Source: Bacteroidota bacterium (GTDB lineage: Bacteria; Bacteroidota; Rhodothermia; Rhodothermales; Bin80). From it: a stretch of DNA of 39,815 nucleotides. Position 1 is the first letter of the stretch, and each line of letters starts with the position of its first letter. Location: contig JAPPGC010000083.1 of assembly GCA_028875125.1 (NCBI GenBank), positions 1-39,815 of the forward strand, in the 5' to 3' direction. Position numbers and translations under genes: made by a program. Shown here in pieces: positions 8,926 through 26,779 of this stretch. Under the pieces are notes generated by a model. The model was not told the DNA's origin. It searched no databases and was given only the letters and a program-made list of their open reading frames with translations.

Positions 8926-8953
8926 TTGAGAATTTATGCAATCATATTATACT
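8926..8953 (+). promoter_or_regulatory. sigma-70-type promoter of the abiE operon
   Basis: TTGAGA (8926-8931) and TATACT (8948-8953) are separated by 16 nt and each matches the sigma-70 consensus at five of six positions. Transcription would start around 8959-8961, almost exactly at the ATG at 8963. The upstream ATG at 8936 lies inside the promoter and would not be transcribed. The mRNA would then be leaderless. This is seen directly in sequence; use of the promoter is inferred. Confidence 0.6.
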
Positions 8954-8962
8954 GATTTTGAT

Positions 8963-9775
8963 ATGAATAGACGTCAAAATTTACCCAAAGGCCGCATTAG
9001 ACTGGCCACTGTATTGCGAAGTACTGGCGAATTTGTTCGAATTAGCGATGTTGAGGAATCGCTCAACATCAGCCGTTCCGCCGCTTCCAAGCTGCTCTCT
9101 AGATGGGTAAGTCAGGGATGGATTGAGCGTGTTGGTCCAGGAATCTATACAGCGGTTAGTCTTGACTTGATTGGCGTTGGATCGGTACTGGATCATCCTG
9201 AGATGATCGTACCAGCACTATTTGACCCAGCTTATATCGGTGGTCGAACAGCTACCGAATATTGGGGGCTTACAGAACAGATTTTTCGCGACACGGTCGT
9301 GGTCACGGGACGTCCAGTGCGATCAAAGTATCAGAAAATACTTGGTTTGCCATATACCATAAAACATATCCATCCAGATAAAATTTTTGGTCTTGAAACA
9401 ATGTGGTTCCAAAGTATCAAGACCGCAATCTCGGATGTTCCTCGAACTATTTTAGACCTTCTAGACGATCCCGCATTCGGGGGTGGGATAGAGCATGTGA
9501 TCGACTGCTTTGCAGAATACATACGTCATGACCACAGGCAGGATAAAATGCTGATTTCCTATGCAGAGCGTCTTGGCAATGGGGCCGTTTTCAAACGCTT
9601 AGGCTTTCTGGCAGAGCATCAATCAGACTGCAACTATCTCATTGACACTTGTCGGCAAAGAATGACAAAAGGCAATGCAAAACTTATTCCTACCTTGCCT
9701 TGTCCCCGCCTGGTGACAAGATGGCGTCTCTGGGTTCCTGAGATAGATTTCCAAGACGGAAGAGATGGTTACTAA
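8963..9775 (+). CDS. abiEi: AbiEi-type antitoxin / wHTH regulator of a type IV toxin-antitoxin system
   Basis: About 270 residues from ATG 8963 (an alternative ATG at 8936 adds nine residues but lies within the promoter). The N-terminus is a winged helix: RLATVLRSTGEFVRISDVEESL followed by a recognition-helix segment SRSAASKLLSRWVSQGWIERVGPGIY. The rest fits the AbiEi C-terminal antitoxin domain, with GGRTATEYWGLTEQIFRDTVVVT, a common segment in this family, at about residue 90. In characterised AbiE systems this protein represses its own operon and neutralises the AbiEii nucleotidyltransferase without direct binding. The end overlaps the toxin start by 11 nt. The gene lies between an IS110 remnant and a long non-coding gap, consistent with horizontal acquisition. 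Confidence 0.85.
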   Translation: MNRRQNLPKGRIRLATVLRSTGEFVRISDVEESLNISRSAASKLLSRWVSQGWIERVGPGIYTAVSLDLIGVGSVLDHPEMIVPALFDPAYIGGRTATEYWGLTEQIFRDTVVVTGRPVRSKYQKILGLPYTIKHIHPDKIFGLETMWFQSIKTAISDVPRTILDLLDDPAFGGGIEHVIDCFAEYIRHDHRQDKMLISYAERLGNGAVFKRLGFLAEHQSDCNYLIDTCRQRMTKGNAKLIPTLPCPRLVTRWRLWVPEIDFQDGRDGY

Positions 9776-10514
9776 AAAAGAGATCAAGCATGTTGCACTC
9801 GTGCACGGATTGAGGCCTCATATTGTTGAGAAAGATTACCTACTCGGTTGGGTATTAGCTGGCATCTACCACCACGTCGCTCTTCAGAGTAATTGGATCT
9901 TCAAGGGGGGAACCTGCATCAGGAAATGCTATTTCGATACCTGTCGGTTCTCCGAAGATCTTGATTTCACGATTATAAGGCCGTCCCATCTCAACCGTGA
10001 CTTCCTTATTGAAACGTTTAACGAAATTAGTGAGTGGATTTTTGAGCAGGTTGGTCTTGAGATTCCAGAAAGACTACTAAGCTTTGAAATTTTTACAAAT
10101 CCTCGTGGTTCAGAATCTTGTCAGGCCAAAGTAGGGTATCGGGGTCCCATTAGTCCCCGCGTGGGATTCCGCTCACTTCCACGTCTCAAGATTGACCTGA
10201 CATTTAACGAGATTGTTGTGTTGCCATCGATTGAACGCACTATCTGTCATGCGTACAGTGATGACCCACAGAAGGGAATCTCTGTCCGATGCTATGCTCC
10301 CGAAGAGGCTTTTGCCGAAAAAATCTGCGCTTTAGGACATCGTGCTAAGCCACGCGACCTTTACGATGCCATCAATCTCCTCCGGAACGATGAGGAGCAG
10401 CCCAATCATTCCGTTCTAAATGATTTAATTCGAAAAAAATCCGCTCACCGTGATCGTCCCGTTCCAACACTCATTGATGTACAGGAAAAAAGGAAGAGTC
10501 TCGAACATCCCTGA
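9765..10514 (+). CDS. abiEii: AbiEii-type nucleotidyltransferase toxin, cut short by an in-frame TGA
   Basis: The 249 residues contain the DNA-polymerase-beta-like nucleotidyltransferase core of AbiEii/AbiGii toxins. EKDYLLGWVLAGI is near residue 18, the GGT motif in FKGGTCIRK near 48, and RFSEDLDF near 64 carries the catalytic Asp pair. The late family segment EKICALGHRAKPRDLYD is near 185. The frame stops at TGA 10512-10514, but the same frame resumes after two codons as MLSHQVQKLPPF. In relatives I know, that text follows directly after an xEW segment in one continuous protein. A TGG to TGA change at the Trp is the simplest explanation. The ATG start overlaps abiEi by 11 nt. Whether the shortened protein is active is unknown; the catalytic residues are all upstream of the stop. 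Confidence 0.85.
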   Translation: MVTKKEIKHVALVHGLRPHIVEKDYLLGWVLAGIYHHVALQSNWIFKGGTCIRKCYFDTCRFSEDLDFTIIRPSHLNRDFLIETFNEISEWIFEQVGLEIPERLLSFEIFTNPRGSESCQAKVGYRGPISPRVGFRSLPRLKIDLTFNEIVVLPSIERTICHAYSDDPQKGISVRCYAPEEAFAEKICALGHRAKPRDLYDAINLLRNDEEQPNHSVLNDLIRKKSAHRDRPVPTLIDVQEKRKSLEHP

Positions 10515-11649: not shown

Positions 11650-12948
11650 ATGGAGAAACTTGTAATTAAAGGAGGCCATCCACTTCGCGGTACGTTAGCC
11701 ATTAGTGCATCCAAGAATGCAGCACTATCACTGATGGCTGCCGCTGTTCTGCCCCAAGGTGTCACACACCTGGCCCGCATTCCCAAACTTCGCGATATCA
11801 CTACATTTTCGCATGTACTCCGTATTACTGGTGCAGCGGTTACACGCAAAGATACCGGGTTGCAAATCGACGCAACCCGGGTAGGATTCCCGGAAGCGCC
11901 CTATGAACTCGTAAAGAAAATGCGTGCCTCCTTCTATATGTTGGGAGCACTCCTTGGGCGTTGCGGACGGGCACGTGTCTCCCTGCCGGGCGGGTGTGCC
12001 TGGGGACCCCGGCCCGTTAATCTCCACCTTGAAGGACTCGCGGCACTGGGAGCTCAGATTGATCTGGAGGAAGGATACGTTGTGGCACAGACACCCCGCG
12101 GGGGGGTGTCTGGCGGAAGCTACAGACTTGAGCCATCAAGCGTGGGCGCCACCATCAATTTGTTACTAGCCGCCAGTTTGGGACGGGGCGGTACCCGAAT
12201 CGAAAATGCAGCTATTGAACCAGATGTGGTCGTATTCTGCGAAATGCTCTCGGCCATGGGAGCACGACTGGCAGGCATCGGAACACGCACGATTGAAATT
12301 GAGGGGGTTCAAGAACTGAAGGCAATCAACTTCAGCAACTGCCCGGATCGCATAGAACTGGGAACGTTCATGATTGCAGCTGCAATTGCGGGCGTACCCG
12401 GGCAGCCCGTACGATTAACCCACGCCCACCCAGATCACCTGGGTGAACAGTTTATAGCGGCATTCAAGGAAACTGGAGCCGGGTGTGCTATCGCTGACAA
12501 CGAAGTGATCGTAACTCCTCCTGAATCAATCAATCCGGTCTCCATTGAGACCGCCATTTATCCAGGCTTCCCCACAGATCTACAGGCCCAGTGGACTGTA
12601 CTCCTGGCCTGTGCAAATGGAAAGGCTACCGTTACCGACCAGGTTTATGGTGATCGCTTCAATCACATTCCGGAATTGGCCCGTTTGGGACTCCGGGCTA
12701 ACGTTGTCGGCAATCAGGTAACCGTCTACGGCGGCAGTCAGCTCAGCGGAGCACGAGTTATGAGTACCGATCTGCGTGCGAGCGTATCACTGGTACTTGC
12801 GGGGATGATCGCACAGGGAACCACGCACGTTGGCCGAATCTACCACCTGGACCGAGGCTATGAGCACCTGGAAAAGAAACTTAGCCAGTGCGGAATAGAT
12901 ATCCGGCGTGAACAATACGACGAATTTGCTGCTCCCCAGCAAAATTAG
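11650..12948 (+). CDS. murA: UDP-N-acetylglucosamine 1-carboxyvinyltransferase
   Basis: Transfers enolpyruvate from PEP to UDP-GlcNAc, the first committed step of peptidoglycan synthesis (cytoplasm; target of fosfomycin). The 432 residues are close to the usual 420. K22 in ISASKNAAL is the conserved substrate-contacting lysine. The MRAS segment is near residue 91, and the active-site cysteine is C116 in LPGGCAWGPRP. The Cys form predicts normal fosfomycin sensitivity at the target level. It is an isolated plus-strand gene; its TAG stop overlaps the stop of the convergent cytochrome gene (TTAG at 12945-12948). Confidence 0.97.
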   Translation: MEKLVIKGGHPLRGTLAISASKNAALSLMAAAVLPQGVTHLARIPKLRDITTFSHVLRITGAAVTRKDTGLQIDATRVGFPEAPYELVKKMRASFYMLGALLGRCGRARVSLPGGCAWGPRPVNLHLEGLAALGAQIDLEEGYVVAQTPRGGVSGGSYRLEPSSVGATINLLLAASLGRGGTRIENAAIEPDVVVFCEMLSAMGARLAGIGTRTIEIEGVQELKAINFSNCPDRIELGTFMIAAAIAGVPGQPVRLTHAHPDHLGEQFIAAFKETGAGCAIADNEVIVTPPESINPVSIETAIYPGFPTDLQAQWTVLLACANGKATVTDQVYGDRFNHIPELARLGLRANVVGNQVTVYGGSQLSGARVMSTDLRASVSLVLAGMIAQGTTHVGRIYHLDRGYEHLEKKLSQCGIDIRREQYDEFAAPQQN

Positions 12949-15608
12949 CGCTGTACTCTATGCAGCATGTGCTCGTGGATCGGCTGAGCCTCCAGATTGT
13001 CTGACGGATGACGCTGCTTATAGGGACCGGTCACCGCAAGCGCCGTTTCATCCTCTTTGTGGAATTCATACAGCCTTTGTGCCTCCTGAAGTTCTTCTGT
13101 ACGCTCCAGTGCCCCGAGCGTCAGCATGCGATTATACAAGGCCCCTAGGTCCTCGGGATCTATCTCAAGGACGCGGTCCATCCACTGCAGCGCCTCCTCG
13201 TATCGCTCCATCAGGTAATGCATCCGACCAATAGAAAGCAATAGCACACGGTCTGCTGGATAAGTCTCGTACACATACATCCACTCGGTAATCGCATCGT
13301 CGTAATATCCGTATCCATTCAATACTTCACCACGGAAATAAGCCGTCTTGGCATATCTGGGCTGTCTTTTCTCGGCCTCAATCAGCTCAGACTCTGCCTC
13401 TTCTAGACTGCCCTCGGCAAGATGTACACGGGCACGGTTGATTGGTCCTTCTGGACTGTCCGGGGCAATCGCTGAAACCTGACCGAAAGCCTCGAGCGCA
13501 CCGCGCGTATCGCCCTCCAGAAAAAGCCCGATCCCATAATCGTTCCATCGCTCCCAAAGAGCATATGTAGTATCGGGTTGATCTCTTTCAGACCGCTCTG
13601 CGGAGGCCATCAGCGTAATGGGGATTTCCGGGGGTTCACCCGGTGCTAACTCCCATCTTCGCAGATCAACCTCCTTACGTGCCAGCGAGTCCGGCTCCCC
13701 CGGAGCAACCCGTCCGCGAAACGTCCAGTTGTGGAAGTACCACTTGAACTTGCGGTGATACAGTCGAGCGCACAACTCGCTGATCTTTGTACCTTGGGGC
13801 ACTTGGAAGCGGTAATGAACTGTGTGCGCAGTCCCTGGTCCGATCATATGTGCATAGACCGTAGCTATCCAGTCCTGCGCATTGCGTCGACTGATAAGAT
13901 TGCTTGCGCGATCTACCTGAACTGCCCCCCAGAAATGAGCCGTTGAATCTACCCTGCCTGTGTCGTCCAGATGACCCGAGATCAATACCTCCGCCCCCGA
14001 TGTGTCTCTTGCGGCAAACTCCAGCCACATTTCATTGGAGTCGTTTGTCCCTCCAGGCAGCAAATGCCCCACCCTTCGATTACGAACAACCACACTTACC
14101 TCAATGTCATCCCCAGGATCAAGGGAAGGCATGATTTCGTTAGGACCGTAGGTCTGACCATTTACCGTCACAACAAAAATGTCAACGGACGCAGAAGACT
14201 GCAGAGATTCCTGTGCTTCGCGGAGCTGCTCGGAGTATCCGTTGAGTACGGGCAGCGCAGTATTGGCGGCAGCAAAGGTATGACTGCGAATGAATCCCCC
14301 CGTGCCTCCCTGATCATCGGAGGCCACACGCGGCATATGACAGTCAACACAGGACAAAGGAGTTTCTGGAAGATAGAACGAACGTACCGTATTTCCGCTT
14401 GTGCCGCTGCTCTGCCAGGCATCGTATTCATTCTGTCCGCGCTTCCATCGATAGTTATTGACCTCCGGTGGCAAACCTACTTTGTGACAGGTGCCACAGA
14501 ACTCCATCGTCCGATGAACCGGGGTTAACATGGCTTCCCTGTGGGGGTCCGGCTTGGCGCGGACAAGCGTATTATGAATCCATTGGCGGGTATTATCATC
14601 CGCGCGGGCGAATGGATACTCATCCGGCATCGAGATTACATACCGACCGTTGCCTTTTACATCCCTCAATGCGTCAATTGCATGACAGGATAGACATGTG
14701 ATTCCTGCGATGGAGGTTGGATGCTCAAAGTCCAATAACTGTTCGCCCGTGAACCGTCCGGTAAAGAGTACCAGAGGATCGTGACAGGATGCGCACCAGC
14801 GTGCAGGATCATTGCCCGCACGCTCCACCAACACCTCGACACTTTTACGGTAATAGGGGTTGTTGAACGAGGACAGACGATGGGCTGAGCCTTCCCATTG
14901 AGCCACAACATCTGGGTGACATCCTTCCTGACCACAGGATTCCGATCTGTCTAGATCATCATCGCTCAGATACCCGTCATGCGCCAGTATGGCCTGCGAT
15001 GCCGACATAGGATTTTCCTCGGATCCTTCCACATAAATTGACCCCCTCCCCTGAAGCCAGGGCACAACCGCTACTAGCAAAGTGACCGCGAGACCGGCAG
15101 CCAACGTGAGCGAAAGGGGGTGTCGCCACACGTGAAATCCCCCTGAATGGAAGGCCTTTCCCCATTCCAGGAAACGATACCGTACCCCCTCTTTCATGGA
15201 CACATGGACCACAAATCCACCCATTGAAGTGAAAACAGAGATCAGATGTACGTACAATAGCGTGCTCCCCGCCCAGGTTGAACCCAGAAATACGAGCCCG
15301 AACCCCGAGGAGAGTAGCGCTGTCAGTGATGTTCCTGTAAAGGCCCCCGCAAACGTTGCTTTCCAGTTGCTGCGAAGCGGCATTTTGTAAAGGTGCAGTG
15401 ATATAAATACCGCAGACGGCAAGACGAATAACGTGCCCAGACCTATATGAAGAAGTACATTACTCATGTAGAGGAACGCCGTGGATCCCTCCATCAGATA
15501 GAGGAGCAGGCTGTTCACCATAAGAACAGCAAAACCACCTAACAGCACCGCAACCAATCGTCTCTGGCGCTTGGGCAATCGTATGTAGCGCTTGCGAGGA
15601 CGTGCCAT
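12945..15608 (-). CDS. membrane-anchored pentahaem cytochrome c with TPR tail
   Basis: About 887 residues from ATG 15608; a longer reading from 15665 overlaps the upstream gene and adds 19 residues. Residues 18-185 contain four to five transmembrane helices. Haem-binding motifs follow: a CX4CH (CGQEGCH, 225-231) and four CXXCH (CASCH 272-276, CLSCH 305-309, CGTCH 371-375, CVDCH 420-424). The QWEGSAHR and SFNNPYYRKS context resembles cytochrome c554-like multihaem proteins. A beta-rich middle domain and several TPR repeats (from about 680) end the protein. The haem domain should be periplasmic, passing electrons between the quinone pool or an oxidoreductase and another acceptor; the partner is not shown. 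It starts about 5 nt after the stop of the FAD-oxidoreductase gene, so the two are co-transcribed. Family identity is good; the reaction is unknown. Confidence 0.85.
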   Translation of the reverse strand: MARPRKRYIRLPKRQRRLVAVLLGGFAVLMVNSLLLYLMEGSTAFLYMSNVLLHIGLGTLFVLPSAVFISLHLYKMPLRSNWKATFAGAFTGTSLTALLSSGFGLVFLGSTWAGSTLLYVHLISVFTSMGGFVVHVSMKEGVRYRFLEWGKAFHSGGFHVWRHPLSLTLAAGLAVTLLVAVVPWLQGRGSIYVEGSEENPMSASQAILAHDGYLSDDDLDRSESCGQEGCHPDVVAQWEGSAHRLSSFNNPYYRKSVEVLVERAGNDPARWCASCHDPLVLFTGRFTGEQLLDFEHPTSIAGITCLSCHAIDALRDVKGNGRYVISMPDEYPFARADDNTRQWIHNTLVRAKPDPHREAMLTPVHRTMEFCGTCHKVGLPPEVNNYRWKRGQNEYDAWQSSGTSGNTVRSFYLPETPLSCVDCHMPRVASDDQGGTGGFIRSHTFAAANTALPVLNGYSEQLREAQESLQSSASVDIFVVTVNGQTYGPNEIMPSLDPGDDIEVSVVVRNRRVGHLLPGGTNDSNEMWLEFAARDTSGAEVLISGHLDDTGRVDSTAHFWGAVQVDRASNLISRRNAQDWIATVYAHMIGPGTAHTVHYRFQVPQGTKISELCARLYHRKFKWYFHNWTFRGRVAPGEPDSLARKEVDLRRWELAPGEPPEIPITLMASAERSERDQPDTTYALWERWNDYGIGLFLEGDTRGALEAFGQVSAIAPDSPEGPINRARVHLAEGSLEEAESELIEAEKRQPRYAKTAYFRGEVLNGYGYYDDAITEWMYVYETYPADRVLLLSIGRMHYLMERYEEALQWMDRVLEIDPEDLGALYNRMLTLGALERTEELQEAQRLYEFHKEDETALAVTGPYKQRHPSDNLEAQPIHEHMLHRVQR

Positions 15609-15612
15609 AGGT

Positions 15613-17229
15613 CTAGTAGGTGGACTCGGGCCAACGTAACTGAACCCCCTGCCCTGCCAAAACATCCTGAAATTCTCCTAGATGCCTATCACGCACAGTT
15701 CGCGGTTTTTCGTTTCTGGCAATACACCATGCGGCAAGCGCACCTGCGGCTTCACCAATATTCCACTCGACAGGATGCAAGCGGTAACACCCGCCAGTAA
15801 TATGGGTGACTCCGATGTTTTTCGCTGCCGGCAAAAGGTTTTCTATCCGAATGGGGATCAGTGCACCGAGGGGAATCTCAAAAGGTAAAGACGCAACATC
15901 AATGTAGTTGTCTCCTCCGGTGGACGGATGCAGATCTATACGATAGCTGCCAACTCCAACCGAATCTTCAAAGTGCTCCGCGCGTTGGGCGCCTTTGCGC
16001 GCTTCCGTACCTAAATGGTTTTCCGTTACCGTGAACATTGAAACAATACGTCTGGACTCCCGCAAATAAGGGGCCTTTGCGAGTCCATCTTTAGTGCCCA
16101 TAATATCCCCACGCAACCTAAGTCCTGGCCAACCCTGGCCGCCATCCTCCCGAGGTACTTCAGTCTGAAGCCAGTAGAAGAGTGAAAAACTCAGCTCACG
16201 TGCTGCCTGCCGATGCAAAGCACTGTCGGAATCTGCAAACAGGTTCCCGTTCATATAGTCGTTTTGCGGCCAGTTAACAAGTGAAATTCCTCCTGCATAA
16301 GCTCCCGGTGCGAATAACCCTGGATCTATTAGCCTGCGATAGGTCCACAGATTGAAGTTCTCGGTGACTGCTCCCGGTCGAGGATCGAACGAAGCTGTTC
16401 TTGGCTCGAGGGTTATGGGGTGACTGTAAGTCAGACTCAGCAGCTTCCCGGGCCATGGCGGATCAATTGAAGGTACATAGTCTTGCCAGTACCTGTAGGA
16501 TCCAGGGGGCTCAATCGTATGATCTTCCCCTGGTTGATAGTCCATTGCAAAACACCATGTAGGGGCCTGCATGTTATGAGGCCCCGGACGAGGCGAAGCA
16601 TGTAGTTCTCCCGTGTTCGGTTCGGCCCCCATGACATGCTCCGTCTGTGATAAATCTAGAAGTACCCCATCTTCTGTTGCATCAAGGAAGTACTTTGCTC
16701 TGATTTCTATACCCGAGGGCGATAGTTGGGCGGATTGAACACGATCCCCGCTCACCTCTGCAGAGATTGGTCGTACATTAAGCATTATTCTGAGCTGTCC
16801 TGTACTCAGGTACGGAGCAAACCAGTCGGTTAACACTGCAAGTGCCGCACGCGGTTCATGGCAAAGTCTGGACACGCCACAGGTACCCGGATTCATCAGT
16901 TCCACCGTGGGATCCACCAGCGGATACAATCTTCGATAGTAATCGCGTACGCCTGCTCGAAATGCCCGGTAACGGTCTGTCGCCCCCTGAAACTCAATCC
17001 ACTGATGCTCGTCCGGGGGAACTCCCTGCTGTGTGAACTGCCCGCCAATCCACTCTGTTTCTTCCGTAAGAACTACACGTTGATTCATTCGCAGCGCAGC
17101 CAACGCAGCCGCACATCCTCCCGTACCGCCTCCAATAATCGCTATATCTGCCTCCCATTCACTTTCCGTATGGACTGCGGCCAGAAGTCCCGAACCGGAG
17201 AGTAGTAAAAATGAGCGTCTTGATAACAT
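15613..17229 (-). CDS. exported FAD-dependent oxidoreductase (PF12831-type)
   Basis: The 538 residues begin with a short signal region (MLSRRSFLLLSGSGLLAAV) that has an RR-S-F-L twin-arginine-like pattern, which fits export of a folded flavoprotein. GGGTGG at residues 33-38 is the dinucleotide-binding loop. ETEWIGGQFTQQGV just after it is characteristic of the FAD_oxidored family, and the C-terminal AAKNIGVTHITGGCYRLHPVEWNIGEAAGALAAW segment completes the FAD site. Members occur in sugar and polysaccharide-related loci, but substrates are mostly unproven. Its stop lies about 5 nt before the start of the multihaem cytochrome, suggesting that the cytochrome receives its electrons. That link is inference from gene order. 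Confidence 0.86.
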   Translation of the reverse strand: MLSRRSFLLLSGSGLLAAVHTESEWEADIAIIGGGTGGCAAALAALRMNQRVVLTEETEWIGGQFTQQGVPPDEHQWIEFQGATDRYRAFRAGVRDYYRRLYPLVDPTVELMNPGTCGVSRLCHEPRAALAVLTDWFAPYLSTGQLRIMLNVRPISAEVSGDRVQSAQLSPSGIEIRAKYFLDATEDGVLLDLSQTEHVMGAEPNTGELHASPRPGPHNMQAPTWCFAMDYQPGEDHTIEPPGSYRYWQDYVPSIDPPWPGKLLSLTYSHPITLEPRTASFDPRPGAVTENFNLWTYRRLIDPGLFAPGAYAGGISLVNWPQNDYMNGNLFADSDSALHRQAARELSFSLFYWLQTEVPREDGGQGWPGLRLRGDIMGTKDGLAKAPYLRESRRIVSMFTVTENHLGTEARKGAQRAEHFEDSVGVGSYRIDLHPSTGGDNYIDVASLPFEIPLGALIPIRIENLLPAAKNIGVTHITGGCYRLHPVEWNIGEAAGALAAWCIARNEKPRTVRDRHLGEFQDVLAGQGVQLRWPESTY

Positions 17230-17307: not shown

Positions 17308-19353
17308 CTACCTACTGACGACCATACTGTGCCCTATTTGCACGGTCCCGGCACTGATTACATAGGTGTATACTCCCTGCGACAGGCTGGCAGCATCCAA
17401 CCGTACCAAATGCTCACCTGCACTGAGCATTTTTTCCGTCAAAGCCAGAACCTCGCGACCCAAGAGATCATACACGACGACACGAACAGGGCCCGGTTCA
17501 ACCAGTGAAAACGGGATCGTCGTACTGATTCCGAACGGGTTTGGATAATTTTTGCCAACTGTTATTTGTACCCTCCCTTCTGGCACCGGAGTTGAACGTG
17601 TCGGTGTAGCGTCCGTCGTCTTTATCGTACTGACCAGTGTGAGGTTGGGCAGCGCATCGTTAGTTACCTCACAATAATATCTTGCTACGGATTCACTTGC
17701 ATCAACCCGAATTGATATCGAGTCTGCGCCGCTGATCACTTCTCCGTTCCGGAACCATCTATATTCGTTCCCGTCCGCTGAATCTGTCACACTGAAAACA
17801 ACCTCGGAATCGGCACGACGGACCTGTGTAGGTAATGAATCCTGTGGTGCGTAAACAAAAAACCCGTTATCTGCCAATCCAGCACTCGGGACTAAGTCTC
17901 GAAAATCCAGCTGGTTTTCCGAGACATCTACGGTGTCCAGAAATGCCCACTCCGTTAGATCTGTCATTTCATCAAACTTATTCTTGGCCAAATCCAAAAT
18001 CTCGAGATAGTACATCGCTCTGCGATGCGGCATAAATGAGCCTGTCAACTTATTGTCACTCAGCCGAACTTCAACCAGCCTCTGGTGACCGTACATGTTT
18101 TCGAGTGTACCTGTAAAAGCATTCCCCCTTATATCAATCTTGCGCAACCAAGTGAGTGCTCCGATAAAAGACGCAAAATCGCCGGTAAGCTGATTCCCTC
18201 GCAGATGCAACTCATCCAATGATCTTGGCAACCGGGCAACCTCGCCCGTGAGCTGATTATTTGACAGGTTCAACAGACGCAAATGTGGGCTACTTCCCAA
18301 ATCCGGGGGCGGTGAACCCGTCAACTCATTCCCCTCCAGATCCAGCGTAGTAAGAAAGAACATACTGCCAAAACCCTCCGGGATTTCACCTGTAAGGCGG
18401 TTATTGGCCAGGTAGATTTTTGTCAAACCCGGTCCCTGGGTTAATCCAGATGGAATTGCACCAGTGTATTGGTTGCCCTCAAGAGACAGGTTTTGTAGGG
18501 TAGGCATTGAGGCCAATTCGATCGGAATCGTCCCCGTCAACTGATTAAAGCCCGCATACAACGAAATCAGCGATGGGAATGTGGTCAGTTCCAACGGGAG
18601 CTCACCCATAAAATTGTTTCCATCCACGAACAGTTCGACGAGTCCTGTGATATTCGCCAGTTCAGCGGGTATCGTGCCTTCTAGTTGATTAAAGTCCAGA
18701 TACAACTTCTTGAGTGTCGAAATATTACCCAATTCTGGTGGTATCGAACCGGTTAACTGGTTATCGAAGAGTGACAATTTTTCGAGGGCCGGCATTTGCC
18801 CCAGCTCTGGCGGAATAGCTCCAGAAAGCTTGTTACCCCACAAGATTAACTCTCTCAATACCGTCAGATTGGCAACTGACGCAGGGATAGAAAAGCTCAG
18901 GTCATTGAAAGACAGATCCAGTTCTTCAAGTTCTTCAAGCGTACCCAGAGGTGTGGGGAGCAGTCCGGACAACCCATTATCGCCAAGGTCAATAGACATC
19001 ACGCGGCCGTTGCTGTTGAGCGCAATTCCGTGCCACTGGGATACCGGCGCTTGCAGCCAACCGGTATTATCAAACCAGGAAGCACCTCCAGAAAAATTGT
19101 ATAGCGTGACCAAGACCAGAGAATCTGCTTCGGAGGCGGTCACTTGTACGCTGGAGTGCTTCATTTTTGCTGCAGCGGTGCGCTCTGCAATGCGCTGCTG
19201 CAGGAGGGTAGACCTACGCTGTTCCCGATCCTGAGACCAAGCCTGCTGGACAACCAACAGGATTAAAAATAGCAGAACTACCACCCGCCTGGCAACCGTA
19301 TTACCGCAAATGGTTAACATCCTGCGCACATTTGATCTTGATAAGCCGGGCAT
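17308..19353 (-). CDS. secreted leucine-rich-repeat protein with type IX-type sorting domain
   Basis: 681 residues. A signal peptide is evident (hydrophobic VVVLLFLILLVVQQAWSQ); the ATG at 19353 or the one at 19320 could start it. Residues about 70-480 hold some 15 LRR units of the LxLxxNxLTGxIPxE type, the plant-like or SDS22-like class common in Bacteroidota surface proteins. An Ig-like or PKD-like region with a conserved Cys follows (about 500-580). The last 80 residues start NYPNPFGISTTIPFSL and contain VVYDLLGREV, then GVYTYVISAG and MVVSR, which is the type A C-terminal domain used by the type IX secretion system. The protein is probably cell-surface or released, with a binding role. 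No T9SS machinery genes are in the window. Confidence 0.88.
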   Translation of the reverse strand: MPGLSRSNVRRMLTICGNTVARRVVVLLFLILLVVQQAWSQDREQRRSTLLQQRIAERTAAAKMKHSSVQVTASEADSLVLVTLYNFSGGASWFDNTGWLQAPVSQWHGIALNSNGRVMSIDLGDNGLSGLLPTPLGTLEELEELDLSFNDLSFSIPASVANLTVLRELILWGNKLSGAIPPELGQMPALEKLSLFDNQLTGSIPPELGNISTLKKLYLDFNQLEGTIPAELANITGLVELFVDGNNFMGELPLELTTFPSLISLYAGFNQLTGTIPIELASMPTLQNLSLEGNQYTGAIPSGLTQGPGLTKIYLANNRLTGEIPEGFGSMFFLTTLDLEGNELTGSPPPDLGSSPHLRLLNLSNNQLTGEVARLPRSLDELHLRGNQLTGDFASFIGALTWLRKIDIRGNAFTGTLENMYGHQRLVEVRLSDNKLTGSFMPHRRAMYYLEILDLAKNKFDEMTDLTEWAFLDTVDVSENQLDFRDLVPSAGLADNGFFVYAPQDSLPTQVRRADSEVVFSVTDSADGNEYRWFRNGEVISGADSISIRVDASESVARYYCEVTNDALPNLTLVSTIKTTDATPTRSTPVPEGRVQITVGKNYPNPFGISTTIPFSLVEPGPVRVVVYDLLGREVLALTEKMLSAGEHLVRLDAASLSQGVYTYVISAGTVQIGHSMVVSR

Positions 19354-19659: not shown

Positions 19660-20961
19660 TCAGGGATTCTCCTGAAGCCGGGCTGCCAGTTCAGTGAATA
19701 ATTTTCGATCGGGTTTGAGCGAGTGAAACCCGATGCGTTCCGGCCAAGGATAGTACTTGGGGATCTTAAATCTAGGAAGCTCACGATTGAGAATCAATTC
19801 CAATTCCTCAAATTTTACGTTTCCTTGAATGAATGCTACCGGACGCCGTCCAAATTCTGGATCAGGGACTGGTACCACGACGGCCTTTTGTACCCCCTGA
19901 GCGCCGCAGAGCGTGTGTTCGATTTCCTCGGGACTTATATTTTCACCGCCTGAAATAAACATGTTATCCTTACGTCCCAGAACATAGAGTTCCCCGTTAT
20001 CGTCGAGTCGTCCCAGATCCCCTGTATGCAGCCATCCATCTTCATCTGCAATATTCACGATCGTGTCCACATTCAGGTACCCCAGACAAATGGAGGGGCT
20101 TCGGACCAGTATTTCGCCATCTCCGGCAATCTTGAGTTCATTTCCCTGCAGTGCATGCCCAGATGAACCAGAGGATGGATTTTTTTTACTTAGCGTGACC
20201 ATTGACGCTGTTTCCGTCATCCCATACGTCGTGCGGATCGGCCACCCTTTGTTTATTGCCATTTTCAAGACACCTTGAGGCATTGGTCCTCCTCCTACGA
20301 TGACTGCACGCAAGTGGCTAGGAGGCTTCTGGGCTTGCTCCAGAACCCGTATCAATTGCGTTGGAACCATGGAGACATGCGTGATCTGATGGCTCGACAG
20401 CGCCTCAATGAGAGACATCCCGGGATCGGGGATGACAATCTTCGCACCGGCTACGGAACAGCGAAAGACAATACTGATCCCTGAAACATGCCAGAGTGGA
20501 AGGCTCAACAGCCAGCGGTCGCTACTCAATAAACCCAGCGCAGCGCATGCACTTTTTGCACTGGTAATGTGATTCTCCAGACTGTGCGCAACGGCTCTGG
20601 GAGTGGCTGACGAGCCTGATGTATAGACTATCGTGGCTGCGCCTTCATGGGAGCTGGCGTTGCCTGTAAGAGGCTTCTCAGCGTAGAGTTCAGCAGGATC
20701 AAGGCACTTAACCTCCAGATCTGTACGTGTGGTCAATACATACTCGATCCCTAATCTTCCGAGCACCTGATTCACTGCGGCTCCGGGCCAGCGCGTGCTC
20801 AGCATACATGCCGATACTCCGGCTTGCACACAACCCAACAGTGCCTCCACTGCCTGCCGACCGGGTTCCAAGCAAATACCCACCCTTGATATACGATTGC
20901 GGACCATGTAGCCTGCCACCTTGGCCGAGGCCTCCCACAGCGGGTTTTCAACAGAAAACAA
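19660..20961 (-). CDS. menE: o-succinylbenzoate--CoA ligase
   Basis: AMP-forming ligase that activates o-succinylbenzoate to its CoA ester in menaquinone synthesis. The phosphate-binding motif VYTSGSSATPRAVAHS is near residue 112, TYGMTETAS near 245, and GWLHTGDLGRLDDNGELYVLGRKDNMFISGGENISPEEIE spans the adenylation-to-thioester hinge. At 433 residues it is short for MenE (usually 450-490), and the N-terminus is about 20-30 residues shorter than normal. The first usable codon is TTG at 20961. The frame stays open upstream for about 28 codons without ATG, GTG or TTG. Either it starts at TTG or the original start has been lost. It is separated from the other men genes on this strand by the opposite-strand menC. 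Confidence 0.9.
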   Translation of the reverse strand: MFSVENPLWEASAKVAGYMVRNRISRVGICLEPGRQAVEALLGCVQAGVSACMLSTRWPGAAVNQVLGRLGIEYVLTTRTDLEVKCLDPAELYAEKPLTGNASSHEGAATIVYTSGSSATPRAVAHSLENHITSAKSACAALGLLSSDRWLLSLPLWHVSGISIVFRCSVAGAKIVIPDPGMSLIEALSSHQITHVSMVPTQLIRVLEQAQKPPSHLRAVIVGGGPMPQGVLKMAINKGWPIRTTYGMTETASMVTLSKKNPSSGSSGHALQGNELKIAGDGEILVRSPSICLGYLNVDTIVNIADEDGWLHTGDLGRLDDNGELYVLGRKDNMFISGGENISPEEIEHTLCGAQGVQKAVVVPVPDPEFGRRPVAFIQGNVKFEELELILNRELPRFKIPKYYPWPERIGFHSLKPDRKLFTELAARLQENP

Positions 20962-21590
20962 CGGCGCGGGAGCGCGCAGTTTAGCCTTGACTGGCTTTGG
21001 ATCTACACTATATTCGGGCTGATTTTTTAGACTTGGTGAGATGATATATCAATTGTTTTTTCGACAAGCCTTAAATCAGGCAAGTCCGAGAAAGGTGATC
21101 CAGCGAGTTGGCCATAGGCTGTACTACGCCTAGTTAGTGCGATTATTCTACATAAGGAAGGCAGATTATTTCCCTCCGTAAACAGTATGCAGTTCCCCAG
21201 GTTTTCTTCTCGATTACTGCAGTCGGTAACGCGCCCCCACTCACCATGCAGTTGGCCGGGATACTCAGAAATACTAACTGGTTTGCAATCTGTCTTTACT
21301 GCAGTTCCTCAGCATGGAGGTAATTCAAGGCTCAGTGCCAAAAGTATCTATTCCCAGACAATCACACCAATCGATGTGGATTGTGCGTGCTTACGGATTC
21401 TGATACATGCCTGTCAGACATTCTCAGAGTGGAGCGTAAATTGGGGCAGAACATGATTGGAGAAGTACGTGGAATTTTCAGGTGAACACAAAATCGGCTA
21501 GTCCAATGAATCCGTTGACGACTTCCTCACAACAGTGGTACGTTTCAGTTCGTCTATTTACTGTACCATGCGACCCCATAGATCGGGAGC
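20962..21590. other. 629-nt divergent interval between menE and menC
   Basis: Must hold the divergent promoters of menE and menC. The first 90 nt still read in the menE frame, so the 5' end of menE may extend into it. Short open frames (for example 21187-21456 on the plus strand) have no recognisable protein features. A TGGTAC...GTACCA pair lies at about 21537-21568, just before menC; it could be a weak regulatory hairpin. Confidence 0.4.
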
Positions 21591-22631
21591 ATGACGGTTA
21601 TTGATTCAGTCACTATCTATACGTACAAACTGCGTCTGACCTCTCCCATTGCCTGGGACGGGCAAGCCCGTACACATCGAAGGGGTCTGCTGGTGTGTCT
21701 GGGTTATGGCGATGACTCAGGCTGGGGAGATATTGCACCCTTACCTGGGTTCAGCGCCGAATCATTAACAGAGACACAAGTATGGGCCGAAGAATTCGCC
21801 AGAGAAATCCTGAAGTCGCCACCACGCACTTTGGATCTGAGTGCAATCAAGATTCCCCCTTCGGTTCGATTTGGGTTTGAACTTGCCCTCTGCAATCTGG
21901 ACATAGCAACGAGAAAACCATCCCCGCAAGAAGCATCAGCCGTTGCATGCTGTGGCTTGATCGGACATCAGACAGATCAACAATTCCATCTCGCGCACAC
22001 TCTTGTCACCTCAGATTATCGGGCTGTGAAGCTCAAACTTGGCCGACAATCCCTCGAGGAAGATTTGAACACAGTGCACACAATTTGCGGAAAATACCCG
22101 CACCTTGCAGTTCGTGTTGATGCGAACCGCTCGTGGTCAATAGATACGGCGAAAAATTTCGTCCGAGCCACTCAAAATTTGAGACTGGACTACCTTGAAG
22201 AGCCCTTGAAAGATAAGACCAATCTTGTGGAGTTGGCCCGAAACTGCACTATTCCGATAGCCCTGGATGAAACTCTTCGAGGACAGGATGCAGAAAAATA
22301 CCACAAGGTTGCCGATGTTCGGGTGCTAAAGCCGACACTGGCCGGGGGGACCTACACGACCCTCGCACATATAGAACAAGCCATACAAGACAACGCACGG
22401 TGTATCATCAGTTCCTCCTATGAATCTGGTGTGGGAATGCTTGGCCTGATTGAAATGGCCAGAAACCTCCCGGAGGAAATACATGGTCTGGATACGCACA
22501 AAGTATTTGAACGGGATGTCTTTAGGGTCCCTTTACAATTGAGTGGTCCCATGCTGCAACCAGAGGGATCCATAGAAACCCACGATCTAGATCAATCAAT
22601 ATTGCATCGCGTCTGGCATGCGAAAGCATAA
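21591..22631 (+). CDS. menC: o-succinylbenzoate synthase
   Basis: Enolase-superfamily enzyme that dehydrates SHCHC to o-succinylbenzoate in menaquinone synthesis. 346 residues. The catalytic set is complete: K147 and K149 in AVKLKLGR, metal ligands D177 (VRVDANRSW), E203 (YLEEPL) and D226 (ALDETL), and the second base K247 in VLKPTLAGG. The opening matches the MenC N-terminal capping domain (LTSPIAWDG). It is the only men gene here on the plus strand and is convergent with the small methyltransferase gene. Some enolase-superfamily relatives racemise N-acyl amino acids, but the men context settles the call. Confidence 0.94.
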   Translation: MTVIDSVTIYTYKLRLTSPIAWDGQARTHRRGLLVCLGYGDDSGWGDIAPLPGFSAESLTETQVWAEEFAREILKSPPRTLDLSAIKIPPSVRFGFELALCNLDIATRKPSPQEASAVACCGLIGHQTDQQFHLAHTLVTSDYRAVKLKLGRQSLEEDLNTVHTICGKYPHLAVRVDANRSWSIDTAKNFVRATQNLRLDYLEEPLKDKTNLVELARNCTIPIALDETLRGQDAEKYHKVADVRVLKPTLAGGTYTTLAHIEQAIQDNARCIISSSYESGVGMLGLIEMARNLPEEIHGLDTHKVFERDVFRVPLQLSGPMLQPEGSIETHDLDQSILHRVWHAKA

Positions 22632-22733
22632 CGCGACCTCCCCGCGGCAAACAGAGGTTGCTCTTGCCAGAGTAGCTACGGTTCCCGTACCCGTAATAGC
22701 GACCCGCCTTGGGATACGCCCACACGGACACTT

Positions 22734-23252
22734 CTATAGACGAACCGCCTCAACGGCATAGTAGCGGGGCGTAAAGCGACGCAGTAGCGGACGAATACCT
22801 GTCAGTGCGCCGTAACTGACCCATTGTTCAGTGCGCACGATCTGCCATCCGGCATGCTCCAGCAACCAGTCAAACTGCCAGGCTTCAAACTCATGAAAAT
22901 GTCGATCCCATGGATCGTCCGGATTGCAGTATGCTGGGGCAAACCATAAACGCAGCGGGACCGTCGCAACGAGGCGAGGAGCTTGAATAACGCTAAGTAC
23001 ATTGTATGGCGTCACCAGATGCTCCAAGATCTCAAAAGCAGTAACAATATCCACGTCAGCTCCAATCTCACCCGTGGCCTCCTCTAGGTCGCCCTCTGTA
23101 TTACTTACCTCGTAACCTGCACCCGCCATCCTCCGCCCAAGTTCATTTGGAGTACCGAGATCAAGAATACGGGCTGGTGGTGGAGAAACACCCTGAAGAA
23201 ACCTTAATGTATTATTGAATCTCCTCTCTAGCGTTCCAGATGCCTGCGACAT
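22734..23252 (-). CDS. small class I SAM-dependent methyltransferase
   Basis: 172 residues. ARILDLGTPNELGRRMAGAGYEV is a Rossmann SAM-binding motif I region, with TEGDLE as the acidic follow-up. DIVTAFEILEHL is motif II/post-II, and the C-terminal half has the FHEFEAWQFDWLLEHAGW pattern common in Methyltransf_11/23-like enzymes. It lies 32 nt downstream of menA on the same strand. It is too short and too unlike UbiE/MenG (about 230-250 residues) to be called the demethylmenaquinone methyltransferase, although it occupies the position where one might expect such a gene. Substrate unknown. Confidence 0.8.
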   Translation of the reverse strand: MSQASGTLERRFNNTLRFLQGVSPPPARILDLGTPNELGRRMAGAGYEVSNTEGDLEEATGEIGADVDIVTAFEILEHLVTPYNVLSVIQAPRLVATVPLRLWFAPAYCNPDDPWDRHFHEFEAWQFDWLLEHAGWQIVRTEQWVSYGALTGIRPLLRRFTPRYYAVEAVRL

Positions 23253-23284
23253 AGTTCAAAGAGTTTGTTTCCCTGATATGTTCG

Positions 23285-24169
23285 TCAAACAACCCACGTC
23301 AGCGCAAAAATCACGCTGTGTGCGAGCAGTAGTAACGCCGTTTGGCCAAGGAGCGGGTTCAAACGGGTAGCATCTTTTATTGTGACCAAGCCGTGCAGTA
23401 TACCTATGGCCGGAATCAAGATCAGTACTGTGAGCCCAGACCATATATGTTCACCGGTGAAGCGAACAAACTCCAGAGGTAGGAGCGCTGCGATAACCAC
23501 ACAGGCAATCCACATACCAATACCGAACTTGCGACCGAACCGGACCACCGTCGTCATCTTGCCCGCCCTGCGATCTTCCTCTATATCCCGGATATTGTTA
23601 ACCAGCAAGACCGTGGTTGCGAGCAAACCGGGAGCGACGCCTACGATAATCACATGTGGTGTAATCTCAAGCGCCTGGACGTAGTAGGTCCCGCCAACGG
23701 CCACCGGCCCAAAAAACACCAGCACAAACAGATCACCCAGTCCCTTGTATCCAAACGGCCATGGCCCGGCTGTATAGAGTATCCCCGCTGCGATCGAAAC
23801 CAAGCCAATGAGGAGTATAATCCATCCGGCGCGGTAAACGAGGTACATTCCAAGGATCGTAGCAAGTGTAAAGACCACAAAAGTGGCCATCCTGATTTGC
23901 TCGGGAGAAATCAGCCCGGCTTGCGTGACTCTCGTAGGTCCTTTGCGATTAGCCGTGTCAGCACCCCGTGCAAAATCTGCATAATCATTGCAAAAATTTG
24001 TCCCAATCGTAATCAGTAACGCACAAGCCATTGCAACCAGCGTTGCGCTTAGGCTAAACCCATCGTTCGCCCATGCCATCGCTGAGCCTACCAGGATTGG
24101 CGCGATTGCAACAGGTAACGTCTTGGGTCGGGCAGCTAAGAGCCAAACACCAATTGAGTTCTTGCTCAT
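23285..24169 (-). CDS. menA: 1,4-dihydroxy-2-naphthoate polyprenyltransferase
   Basis: UbiA-superfamily integral membrane enzyme that attaches the prenyl tail to DHNA, giving demethylmenaquinone. 294 residues and eight or nine hydrophobic helices. The first Asp-rich motif is [11 protein letters not shown] (near residue 61), with [13 protein letters not shown] following. The second is [22 protein letters not shown] (near 186). These two prenyl-diphosphate/Mg sites and the membrane pattern are diagnostic. The ATG overlaps the menB stop by 4 nt, so it belongs to the menF-menD-menB-menA operon. Confidence 0.95.
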
Positions 24170-25050
24170 GGCTTGTAGCCTTCTCTGTCAAAGTCTGGTG
24201 GACGCTTGGCCAAGTATGCATTCCTACCCTCCTGCCCCTCCTCAGTCATATAGAACAGCATCGTTGCATGTCCGGCCAACTCCTGCAAACCCGCCTGACC
24301 ATCACAGTCTGCATTGAATCCGGCCTTAAGCATCCGTATTGCAATATTTGAATTTTGGAGAATTTCCCTGCACCACTGCACTGTAGTGCGTTCTAGGTCG
24401 TCCAGTTCAACAACAGTGTTTACGAGTCCCATCTGTAAAGCCTCGGAGGCATCATAAGGTCTGCACAAGAACCATATTTCCCGGGCTTTTTTCTGACCCA
24501 CATGACGGGCAAGATAACTCGCTCCATAGCCTCCGTCGAAAGAACCGACCTTTGGGCCGGTTTGCATGAATTTAGCATTGTCGGCAGCAATCGTGAGATC
24601 ACAGATAACATGCAGCACATGTCCACCTCCGACGGCCCAGCCCGCAACCATGGCAATTACCGGCTTGGGGCAGGTTCTAATCTGTCTTTGCAAGTCAAGG
24701 ACATTCAGGCGCTGGGTACCTGTGCCTTTCTCGGTATATCCATGATCTCCACGAATGCGCTGATCCCCCCCAGAACAAAAAGCATCTGGCCCAGCCCCGG
24801 TCAGCACAATCACTCCAATAGTAGCATCATCACGCGCCCTGGCGAATGCATCCTGCATTTCGGTTACCGTTAATGGACGGAAAGCATTGCGAACCTGTGG
24901 ACGATTGATCGTTACCTTGGCAATGCCTGCCGTATCGGTCTCAGGAACACCCGTCTGATACAGGACGTCCGTGTAATTGCCTGCATCCTGCCATACAATT
25001 GGCCCCTTAACAGTAGGTCGATATGTAAAGTGATGCTTCTTTTTGGACAT
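24166..25050 (-). CDS. menB: 1,4-dihydroxy-2-naphthoyl-CoA synthase
   Basis: Crotonase-fold enzyme that cyclises o-succinylbenzoyl-CoA to DHNA-CoA. 294 residues, slightly longer than the usual 270-285. The segment [15 protein letters not shown] (near residue 90) is the MenB oxyanion-hole region. [22 protein letters not shown] and [32 protein letters not shown] are strongly typical of MenB rather than other enoyl-CoA hydratases. Gly in the VGSFDGG segment and Asp near its end match MenB active-site positions. It lies between menD (13-nt gap) and menA (4-nt overlap). Confidence 0.97.
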
Positions 25051-25063
25051 TGTAATGGTTCAA

Positions 25064-26779
25064 TTATGTGAGAAGTTCGGCTTCAATAGCCTCGTTTACG
25101 CTCGTGTAAATGGTTTCGTGGAGATCTGCGTTTTCCCTGCGGTCTGTTCTGACCTCAATCAGGTTTGGGCCTGCTGAAGCAGCCGCAGCGCGCCAGGTTT
25201 CCTTAAATCGGGCGCATGAGTCAGCCAATGTGTACGGTATCTGAAATTGCTCTGCAGCAAACCGGAAGTCCATGCCGTGGGGAGTTCCGAGTACCGTTTC
25301 GAACGGTTCCTGCTCAAGAGCAATTGGAAGCATATTAAATATGCCGCCGCCGTTGTTATTGACGACTACAATGGTAATGTCGCGATCTTTTAGAAGTGCC
25401 AGTGAATTCAGGTCGTGTAACATGGCTAAATCTCCCAACAATACGGTCCCTGTCCCAGATTGCCCCCGAGCAATACCTGCTGCCGTGGCAAGCGTGCCGT
25501 CAATTCCACTTGCACCACGATTTGCAAAAACGCGCGGAGTTGCGTCTCTTTCCAGGAAAGCCTGCAAGTCCCGAATCGGCATGCTGCTGGCACCTAGGAT
25601 CCAATTTGTATGGTCAGATAGCCTAGACAGCATCCACGCCACAGACGGTTCAGAGAGCTTATGGTCAAGCAGTGAGACTAGTGTACGCCGCGCTAAGGTG
25701 TTTGCACGCATCCATGCCTCAGTCCAGGCGGCATGAGATTTATCCCGGGGTACCTCACCCAGCAAATAATTACAGAACCCGGAAATTTTCGACTGAATTC
25801 GATCCGTTAATACGTGGTATGGATCAATCCTGTCTGAAGATGGTGCGATCAATGCATAAGTCTCGGCCCGCGCATGTGACAAAAACTGCTGTAATTTCTT
25901 AGATACCAAGGGCCCTCCAAAATGCAATACTACATCCGGGGAATACTGACGGGTAAACCTTTCACTGCGTACAATTAAGTCAAAGAAGGTTACCATGTTC
26001 TCTACCGGGGGCACTGGTGCGCTAATATCTGCCATTAACGGCCACCCTAGATGCTTAGCCAGGGCATGAACGGCTTTGCCCCCCTCGGGGCTCTGTAAGC
26101 TCCCGACAATAATAAGTCCTCGGTGAGCTTCACAAATTTTCCGCACTAATCTTTGACTCGGCGCAAAAGCACTCCCTACCGCAGTCATGTACTGTGTTTG
26201 CTCACGTTCCTCTGTGGACCAGGACATCTTCGGGATTGATTTTTCTTCCTGATCTTCCTCCAAAAGAGGTTCTCTGAACATGCAGTTCAGATGCACAGGC
26301 CCATCACAGGCCCGATGCACTGCCTGATCAATGGTAGACCTTATGTATGCCCCATCCCGCTCTGAGACCGGTACTGGCAAATCCACAAACCACCTCGGAT
26401 AACGACCAAATAAATGCACTTGATCAATGGTCTGGTTGGCACCGGTATCGCGAAGTTCGGGAGGACGGTCAGCCGTAAGGCAGATCATTGGCACGCTGTC
26501 CATACTGGCTTCGACTATGGCCGGTAGACCATTTGCCGCTGCTGTACCTGAAGTAGTGATCCAAACACACGGCTTCCGGGTTGCCCGGCCGTATCCAAGT
26601 GCAAAAAATGCACTGCCGCGTTCATCAAAATGAACCGTGCAATGCGTGCCTGGATGACTGATCGCTGCTAGCGCGAGAGGTGCACTTCTGAAACCAGGAG
26701 CAATTATAAACTCATCAACTCCGCAGCGTACCAGTTCTGCGACGATAAGATGTGCACGATGCGCATTGCTTTCGATCAT
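25064..26779 (-). CDS. menD: SEPHCHC synthase
   Basis: ThDP-dependent 2-succinyl-5-enolpyruvyl-6-hydroxy-3-cyclohexene-1-carboxylate synthase, which condenses isochorismate with 2-oxoglutarate. 571 residues, full length. E53 in HFDERGSAFFALG is the cofactor-activating glutamate, and TTSGTAAANGLPAIVEA follows. The Mg/ThDP site is LLGDLAMLHDLNSL then VVNNNGGGIFNML near residue 440-480. In most MenD proteins the N-terminal loop reads PGSRS; here it reads PGFRSAPL (28-35), so the Ser is replaced by Phe. The ATG overlaps the menF stop by 4 nt. Confidence 0.96.
   Translation of the reverse strand: MIESNAHRAHLIVAELVRCGVDEFIIAPGFRSAPLALAAISHPGTHCTVHFDERGSAFFALGYGRATRKPCVWITTSGTAAANGLPAIVEASMDSVPMICLTADRPPELRDTGANQTIDQVHLFGRYPRWFVDLPVPVSERDGAYIRSTIDQAVHRACDGPVHLNCMFREPLLEEDQEEKSIPKMSWSTEEREQTQYMTAVGSAFAPSQRLVRKICEAHRGLIIVGSLQSPEGGKAVHALAKHLGWPLMADISAPVPPVENMVTFFDLIVRSERFTRQYSPDVVLHFGGPLVSKKLQQFLSHARAETYALIAPSSDRIDPYHVLTDRIQSKISGFCNYLLGEVPRDKSHAAWTEAWMRANTLARRTLVSLLDHKLSEPSVAWMLSRLSDHTNWILGASSMPIRDLQAFLERDATPRVFANRGASGIDGTLATAAGIARGQSGTGTVLLGDLAMLHDLNSLALLKDRDITIVVVNNNGGGIFNMLPIALEQEPFETVLGTPHGMDFRFAAEQFQIPYTLADSCARFKETWRAAAASAGPNLIEVRTDRRENADLHETIYTSVNEAIEAELLT

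Follow-up and report, generated by a model that had tools for sequence, protein, structure and literature searches.

Flavoproteins that are paired with multihaem cytochromes on the outward side of the membrane are represented by Cgr1/Cgr2, urocanate reductase and flavocytochrome c3. On the cytochrome side, c552, ExtKL and Gsu2801 have been grouped as one pentahaem (PHC) family, the proteins of which are described as soluble or as fused to truncated haemoglobin (PMC11976967). A different arrangement is found in CbcL of Geobacter, a proposed quinone oxidoreductase which combines a predicted membrane b-haem domain with periplasmic c-haems (PMC9129911, PMC6295460).

The locus described here lies in a contig of a Bacteroidota bacterium of the order Rhodothermales (the window, i.e. 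the whole stretch of 39,815 nucleotides that was analysed) and consists of a gene for a PF12831 flavoprotein followed by a gene for a membrane pentahaem cytochrome with a TPR tail. The fold of the haem domain and the Pfam family of the flavoprotein are already known. The cytochrome family is the more interesting part, because an undescribed membrane module in it holds two invariant histidines.

The gene pair and its linkage

The flavoprotein stop codon and the cytochrome start are separated by 4 nt, which agrees with the near-contact of about 5 nt given in the first-pass annotation, and both genes are intact (Table 1). The start of the cytochrome at 15608 is backed by homologues; the first ATG of the open reading frame lies at 15665 and would give a protein of 906 aa. 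Neither gene is a chance open reading frame, since dN/dS values of ~0.1 (flavoprotein) and 0.08 (cytochrome) indicate purifying selection on both; conservation together with selection also rules out an annotation artefact. A leucine-rich-repeat gene is located 5' of the flavoprotein in most, though not all, genomes of the same family and is a candidate third member of the operon; in genomes G014 and G015 it overlaps the flavoprotein start by 4 nt. Elsewhere in the window, at 8936-10514, a gene pair looks by appearance only like an abortive-infection type toxin-antitoxin system, with an AbiEi-like regulator and a nucleotidyltransferase-like protein.

Table 1. Positions of the two genes, their parts and a neighbouring candidate in the window
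Feature	Position	Strand	Remarks
PF12831 FAD-dependent oxidoreductase (flavoprotein)	15613..17229	minus	538 aa; RRxFL Tat-like N-terminus
Tat-like signal, MLSRRSFLLLSGSGLLAAVHT	17167..17229	minus	residues 1-21; disordered in structure model
FAD dinucleotide-binding glycine motif, GGGTGG	17116..17133	minus	residues 33-38
Membrane pentahaem cytochrome with TPR tail	12945..15608	minus	887 aa
Five-helix N-terminal membrane module	15048..15572	minus	residues 13-187; without Pfam match
H54 in TM2, putative b-haem ligand	15447..15449	minus	invariant in 60/60 TM-bearing homologues
H121 in TM4, putative b-haem ligand	15246..15248	minus	invariant in 60/60 TM-bearing homologues
Pentahaem and β domain, fold of Thermochromatium cytochrome c552 (5ze8)	13593..14963	minus	residues 216-672
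Haem motif 1, CGQEGCH (CX4CH)	14916..14936	minus	
Haem motif 2, CASCH	14781..14795	minus	
Haem motif 3, CLSCH	14682..14696	minus	
Haem motif 4, CGTCH	14484..14498	minus	
Haem motif 5, CVDCH	14337..14351	minus	
TPR tail	13011..13559	minus	residues 684-866; helices in model
Leucine-rich-repeat exported protein	17308..19353	minus	candidate; possible third operon member, upstream of flavoprotein

A survey of 99 genomes from the order found the two genes adjacent only within the window's own family, in at least four genera. Every one of the ten genomes of the genus has 3-7 nt between the two genes; the gap widens to ~45-55 nt in three further genera of the family and to ~1 kb in G015. The cytochrome gene of G011 is intact, whereas its flavoprotein gene has been disrupted by frameshifts, stops and an inserted piece of ~5.5 kb. 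Families f8, f9 and f15 have both genes on different contigs or hundreds of kb to Mb apart, the seven genomes of family f3 carry the cytochrome and lack the flavoprotein, and a flavoprotein with no close cytochrome is found in four genomes of f5 and one of f14. Of the 394 genomes surveyed in the phylum, 25 contain the flavoprotein, 20 a close cytochrome and 14 both, giving an odds ratio of 77 that ignores phylogeny; this excess of co-occurrence is real but confounded by shared ancestry. Adjacency in other genomes, on which the first-pass annotation had staked the pairing, therefore holds within the window's family and fails elsewhere in the order and phylum, where the genes are unlinked or one occurs alone. 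A conserved two-gene pathway across bacteria is ruled out by the same survey.

A pentahaem cytochrome with a membrane module

The AlphaFold model of the cytochrome (mean pLDDT 90, pTM 0.85) is laid out as five long N-terminal helices (13-187), a haem and β region (216-673) and a final set of TPR helices (684-866), and the five haem motifs are invariant across 73 homologues. The multi-helix N-terminus, the one CX4CH and four CXXCH sites, the β-rich domain and the TPR repeats that had been read from the sequence at first pass are thereby confirmed. Motif 1 is a CXXCH in most Acidobacteria members; since the CX4CH aligns with these and with the CXXCH of 5ze8, it is a genuine haem site into which two residues have been inserted.

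With five c-haem motifs, a β domain and the c552 fold, the haem domain is a member of the pentahaem (PHC/c552/ExtKL) superfamily. The cytochrome matches Cytochrome_C554 (PF13435) at 29.9 bits against a gathering score of 20.8, and its residues 216-674 align structurally with c552 (5ze8) over 342 residues with a Z of 17.9 and an rmsd of 3.5. A profile search of the PDB retrieves 5ze8 at 8.4e-9; the haem domain was used alone for this search because a profile of the whole family was swamped by TPR matches. The cytochrome is not ExtKL itself, as it scores 22.2 bits against the NCBIfam ExtKL equivalog cut-off of 250, and the 21 of 34 family members that match this model all remain far below its cut-off.

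Membrane b-type cytochromes are recognised by paired histidines at matching depth in transmembrane helices, and such a pair is present in the N-terminal module. H54 in TM2 and H121 in TM4 each lie 9-10 residues inward from the periplasmic end of their helix; together with G58 they are the sole fully invariant positions among 175 in 60 module-bearing sequences. This invariance and placement suggest a membrane b-haem and quinone chemistry, so that the electron route to the membrane proposed in the first-pass annotation gains support. All close relatives share a second pair of histidines with the spacing H-x17-H and H-x13-H, as do a paralogue of 31% identity and a few Acidobacteria; elsewhere this pair is mostly absent. 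None of the seven membrane modules tested matched a Pfam membrane cytochrome b, and NapC/NrfH, HydC/FdnI and other Pfam membrane cytochromes were likewise rejected as the source of the N-terminus for want of a match. Nor does the module have the build of the CbcL/MtrH/MtoC class, whose HydC/FdnI-like six-helix di-haem b domain is C-terminal to the c-haems; five N-terminal helices are found here instead.

Relatives of the cytochrome are encoded in at least 573 confirmed stretches from a scan of GTDB species genomes. The neighbourhoods of the best 79 of these at least 573 loci, with lineages assigned by record title, come from Rhodothermales, Acidobacteriota, Poribacteria, KSB1, Calditrichia, Neomarinimicrobiota, Gemmatimonadota, Latescibacterota, Planctomycetota, an Acidimicrobiia MAG and a Bacteroidota isolate. 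A CRTAC1 (FG-GAP/ASPIC-UnbV) gene on the same strand follows the cytochrome at no more than 1.5 kb in 39 of the 65 loci with more than 2.5 kb of downstream flank, and a CRTAC1 gene precedes it in 8 of 67; a position just 3' of the cytochrome was seen in several phyla (loci between L098 and L172, e.g. L116, L126 and L158). At seven Poribacteria loci the upstream neighbours are SDR-like and fumarylacetoacetate-hydrolase-like genes (named by appearance) and not CRTAC1. Among the best 79 loci, the flavoprotein is the neighbour of the cytochrome only in the four that belong to the window's family, and the window's genome has five CRTAC1 genes, all of them away from the gene pair. The literature searched contained no description of the CRTAC1-cytochrome pairing, nor of a protein in which a membrane module with invariant histidines is joined to a pentahaem head and a TPR tail.

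Two further kinds of relative were observed. A TPR-less paralogue of ~31% identity stands beside CRTAC1 in G041 (C3:258752-260662; locus L083, 8690-10690), where it retains both histidine pairs with exact spacing, and the same is seen beside CRTAC1 in six other genomes (G017, G031, G050, G056, G062 and G067, spacing noted for G041). In the window's own genome (G000:C113, ~6.5-10.5 kb; locus L084), two adjoining genes encode other TPR-tailed multi-CXXCH proteins with lipoprotein-like N-termini.

It is possible, though we hold the idea with some doubt, that the five-helix module with its invariant histidines is a new membrane cytochrome b or quinone-reactive domain which, together with the pentahaem head and the TPR tail, forms a widespread adaptor between quinone and periplasm in Acidobacteriota, Poribacteria, Rhodothermales, Neomarinimicrobiota and others. 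The partner plugged into it would then differ between lineages: CRTAC1 in some, the products of SDR/FAH genes or a sugar flavoenzyme in others. If the module does bind b-haem and react with quinone, a single widespread, unnamed family would tie redox chemistry in the periplasm to the respiratory chain of several phyla that are poorly cultured, and the many bacterial CRTAC1 (ASPIC/UnbV) genes would gain a testable redox partner.

The flavoprotein and its probable substrate class

The flavoprotein is a member of PF12831 (FAD_oxidored), with 312.7 bits against a gathering score of 27 and an E-value of 6.6e-93; in its glycine motif G33 and G38 are invariant and G35 and G37 nearly so. The N-terminus, MLSRRSFLLL, fits a Tat motif of the S/T-RRxFLK type, by which export is predicted, and RRxF is present in 9 of 10 aligned flavoproteins of the same family, in line with the twin-arginine-like signal noted earlier. 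The top Foldseek matches include urocanate reductase, the fumarate reductase FrdA and flavocytochrome c3; this group aligns over ~218-237 of the 538 residues, mainly in the FAD domain, at 13-18% identity, and thioredoxin reductases and thiazole synthases score equally well. Deducing the substrate from the structure was given up, as Foldseek and VIA-align matched the FAD domain only, and no characterised PF12831 relative was found in the literature searched.

Relatives with 50-55% identity over ~90% of the length occur in Allomeiothermus, Deinococcus, Sinorhizobium, Agrobacterium and Parabacteroides. At two Deinococcota loci the gene order is sugar-binding protein, permease, permease, flavoprotein and LacI, while in Rhizobiaceae and Streptomyces it is LacI, flavoprotein, binding protein, permease and permease, so that operons of this content are found in three phyla. 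In the Bacteroidota Parabacteroides and G368, SusC/SusD adjoin the relative. Unlike the flavoprotein of the window, the Deinococcota and rhizobial relatives thus stand next to sugar ABC transporters and not next to a cytochrome. The Deinococcota and Rhizobiaceae proteins have no signal peptide and are probably cytoplasmic, because their N-terminus begins directly at the FAD fold; the Parabacteroides protein has a Tat-like N-terminus of the lipoprotein type.

This operon context points to a carbohydrate or sugar derivative as the likely substrate, by which the unknown organic compound of the first-pass annotation can be narrowed, and it gives an uncharacterised flavoprotein family a substrate class for assays. 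The presence of the enzyme in sugar-uptake operons without the cytochrome also shows that its family does not depend on the pentahaem-TPR cytochrome. A mannonate dehydratase (UxuA) gene was observed ~1-9 kb from the PF12831 flavoprotein in Sinorhizobium, Agrobacterium and G023 (L204, L205 and L082). A hexuronate substrate was considered and set aside as suggestive, since UxuA is found near the flavoproteins of relatives and not in the window.

Proposed electron flow, alternatives and comparison with known systems

Coupling of a sugar flavoenzyme to menaquinone is the likeliest reading of the pair, with co-transcription of two proteins that have separate partners close behind. We propose, with somewhat less than even confidence, that a periplasmic flavoenzyme for a sugar derivative exchanges electrons with menaquinone through the cytochrome. 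The two-gene operon would then be an envelope redox step: a sugar or sugar derivative would be oxidised in the periplasm by the Tat-exported flavoprotein, and the electrons would enter the neighbouring cytochrome at its five c-haems. H54 and H121 would hold a membrane b-haem that relays them to the menaquinone pool and finally to the terminal oxidases, with the TPR tail probably docking a partner protein. We infer the b-haem and the quinone reaction from the placement of the histidines, and likewise infer the physical partnership, the direction of flow and the substrate. The model and positive-inside loops place the haem domain on the periplasmic side, and the Tat-like motif would put the folded FAD protein there too. 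Menaquinone-pathway genes lie at 19660-28173 of the window, ~2-13 kb from the pair (MenC, UbiA-type and MenD-type by Pfam, with menE-, menB- and menF-like neighbours by appearance only), and two COX1 genes are present in the genome; these and the nearby MenC, UbiA-type and MenD-type genes make a menaquinone-fed respiratory chain plausible.

Against coupling stand the confinement of linkage to the window's family, the cytochrome without flavoprotein in f3, the flavoprotein-only genomes of f5 and f14 and the broken flavoprotein of G011, as well as the fact that the family-wide neighbour of the cytochrome is CRTAC1 and that cytoplasmic flavoprotein relatives work without an adjoining cytochrome. 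The two proteins may therefore be operon neighbours with separate jobs, a possibility that we hold to be only slightly less likely than coupling: the cytochrome would be a membrane quinone/c-haem oxidoreductase whose real partners lie elsewhere, probably CRTAC1-type propeller proteins, and the flavoprotein a sugar-modifying enzyme which is redox-neutral or uses another acceptor. The downstream bias of CRTAC1, its five copies elsewhere in the window's genome, the frequent occurrence of each gene without the other and the retention of the cytochrome in G011 all agree with such a division of labour, but the tight spacing throughout the genus, the close spacing in three more genera and a co-occurrence in the phylum that is above chance when phylogeny is ignored speak for the coupled enzyme.

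Electrons could also run in the opposite direction, with menaquinol reducing the cytochrome and the flavoprotein serving as a periplasmic reductase as in the flavoprotein respiration of urocanate and fumarate reductases. This is unlikely: the best Foldseek matches do include such enzymes, but mainly through the FAD domain and in a tie with thioredoxin reductases and thiazole synthases, a genome with two COX1 genes does not need a reductive pathway, and the profile search put no respiratory-reductase family above its cut-off. Very improbable is an extracellular electron transfer conduit, in which electrons would leave the cytochrome for cytochromes of the outer membrane and an acceptor outside the cell. 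The haem domain does have ExtKL among its relatives, together with the pentahaem family that has been connected with electron transfer in Geobacter and in cable bacteria (PMC11976967), but kinship of domains does not fix function, and genes for porin-cytochromes or outer-membrane cytochromes were recognised neither around the pair in the window nor in the same-family loci, which leaves the extracellular acceptor of the first-pass annotation without support.

Like Cgr1/Cgr2, urocanate reductase and flavocytochrome c3, the pair joins a flavoprotein with a multihaem cytochrome; this is a resemblance only, as its flavoprotein belongs to PF12831 and theirs are of the FAD_binding_2 type, and the cytochrome differs as well. 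With Thermochromatium tepidum c552 (5ze8) and the PHC family the cytochrome shares five c-haems followed by a β domain, but it differs from them by the five-helix membrane module at its N-terminus, by the TPR tail and by the CX4CH at haem 1. It is comparable to CbcL in that a predicted membrane b-haem domain and several periplasmic c-haems are combined in one polypeptide; CbcL, however, has six C-terminal helices of the HydC/FdnI type and nine c-haems, whereas five N-terminal helices, five c-haems and TPRs are found here.
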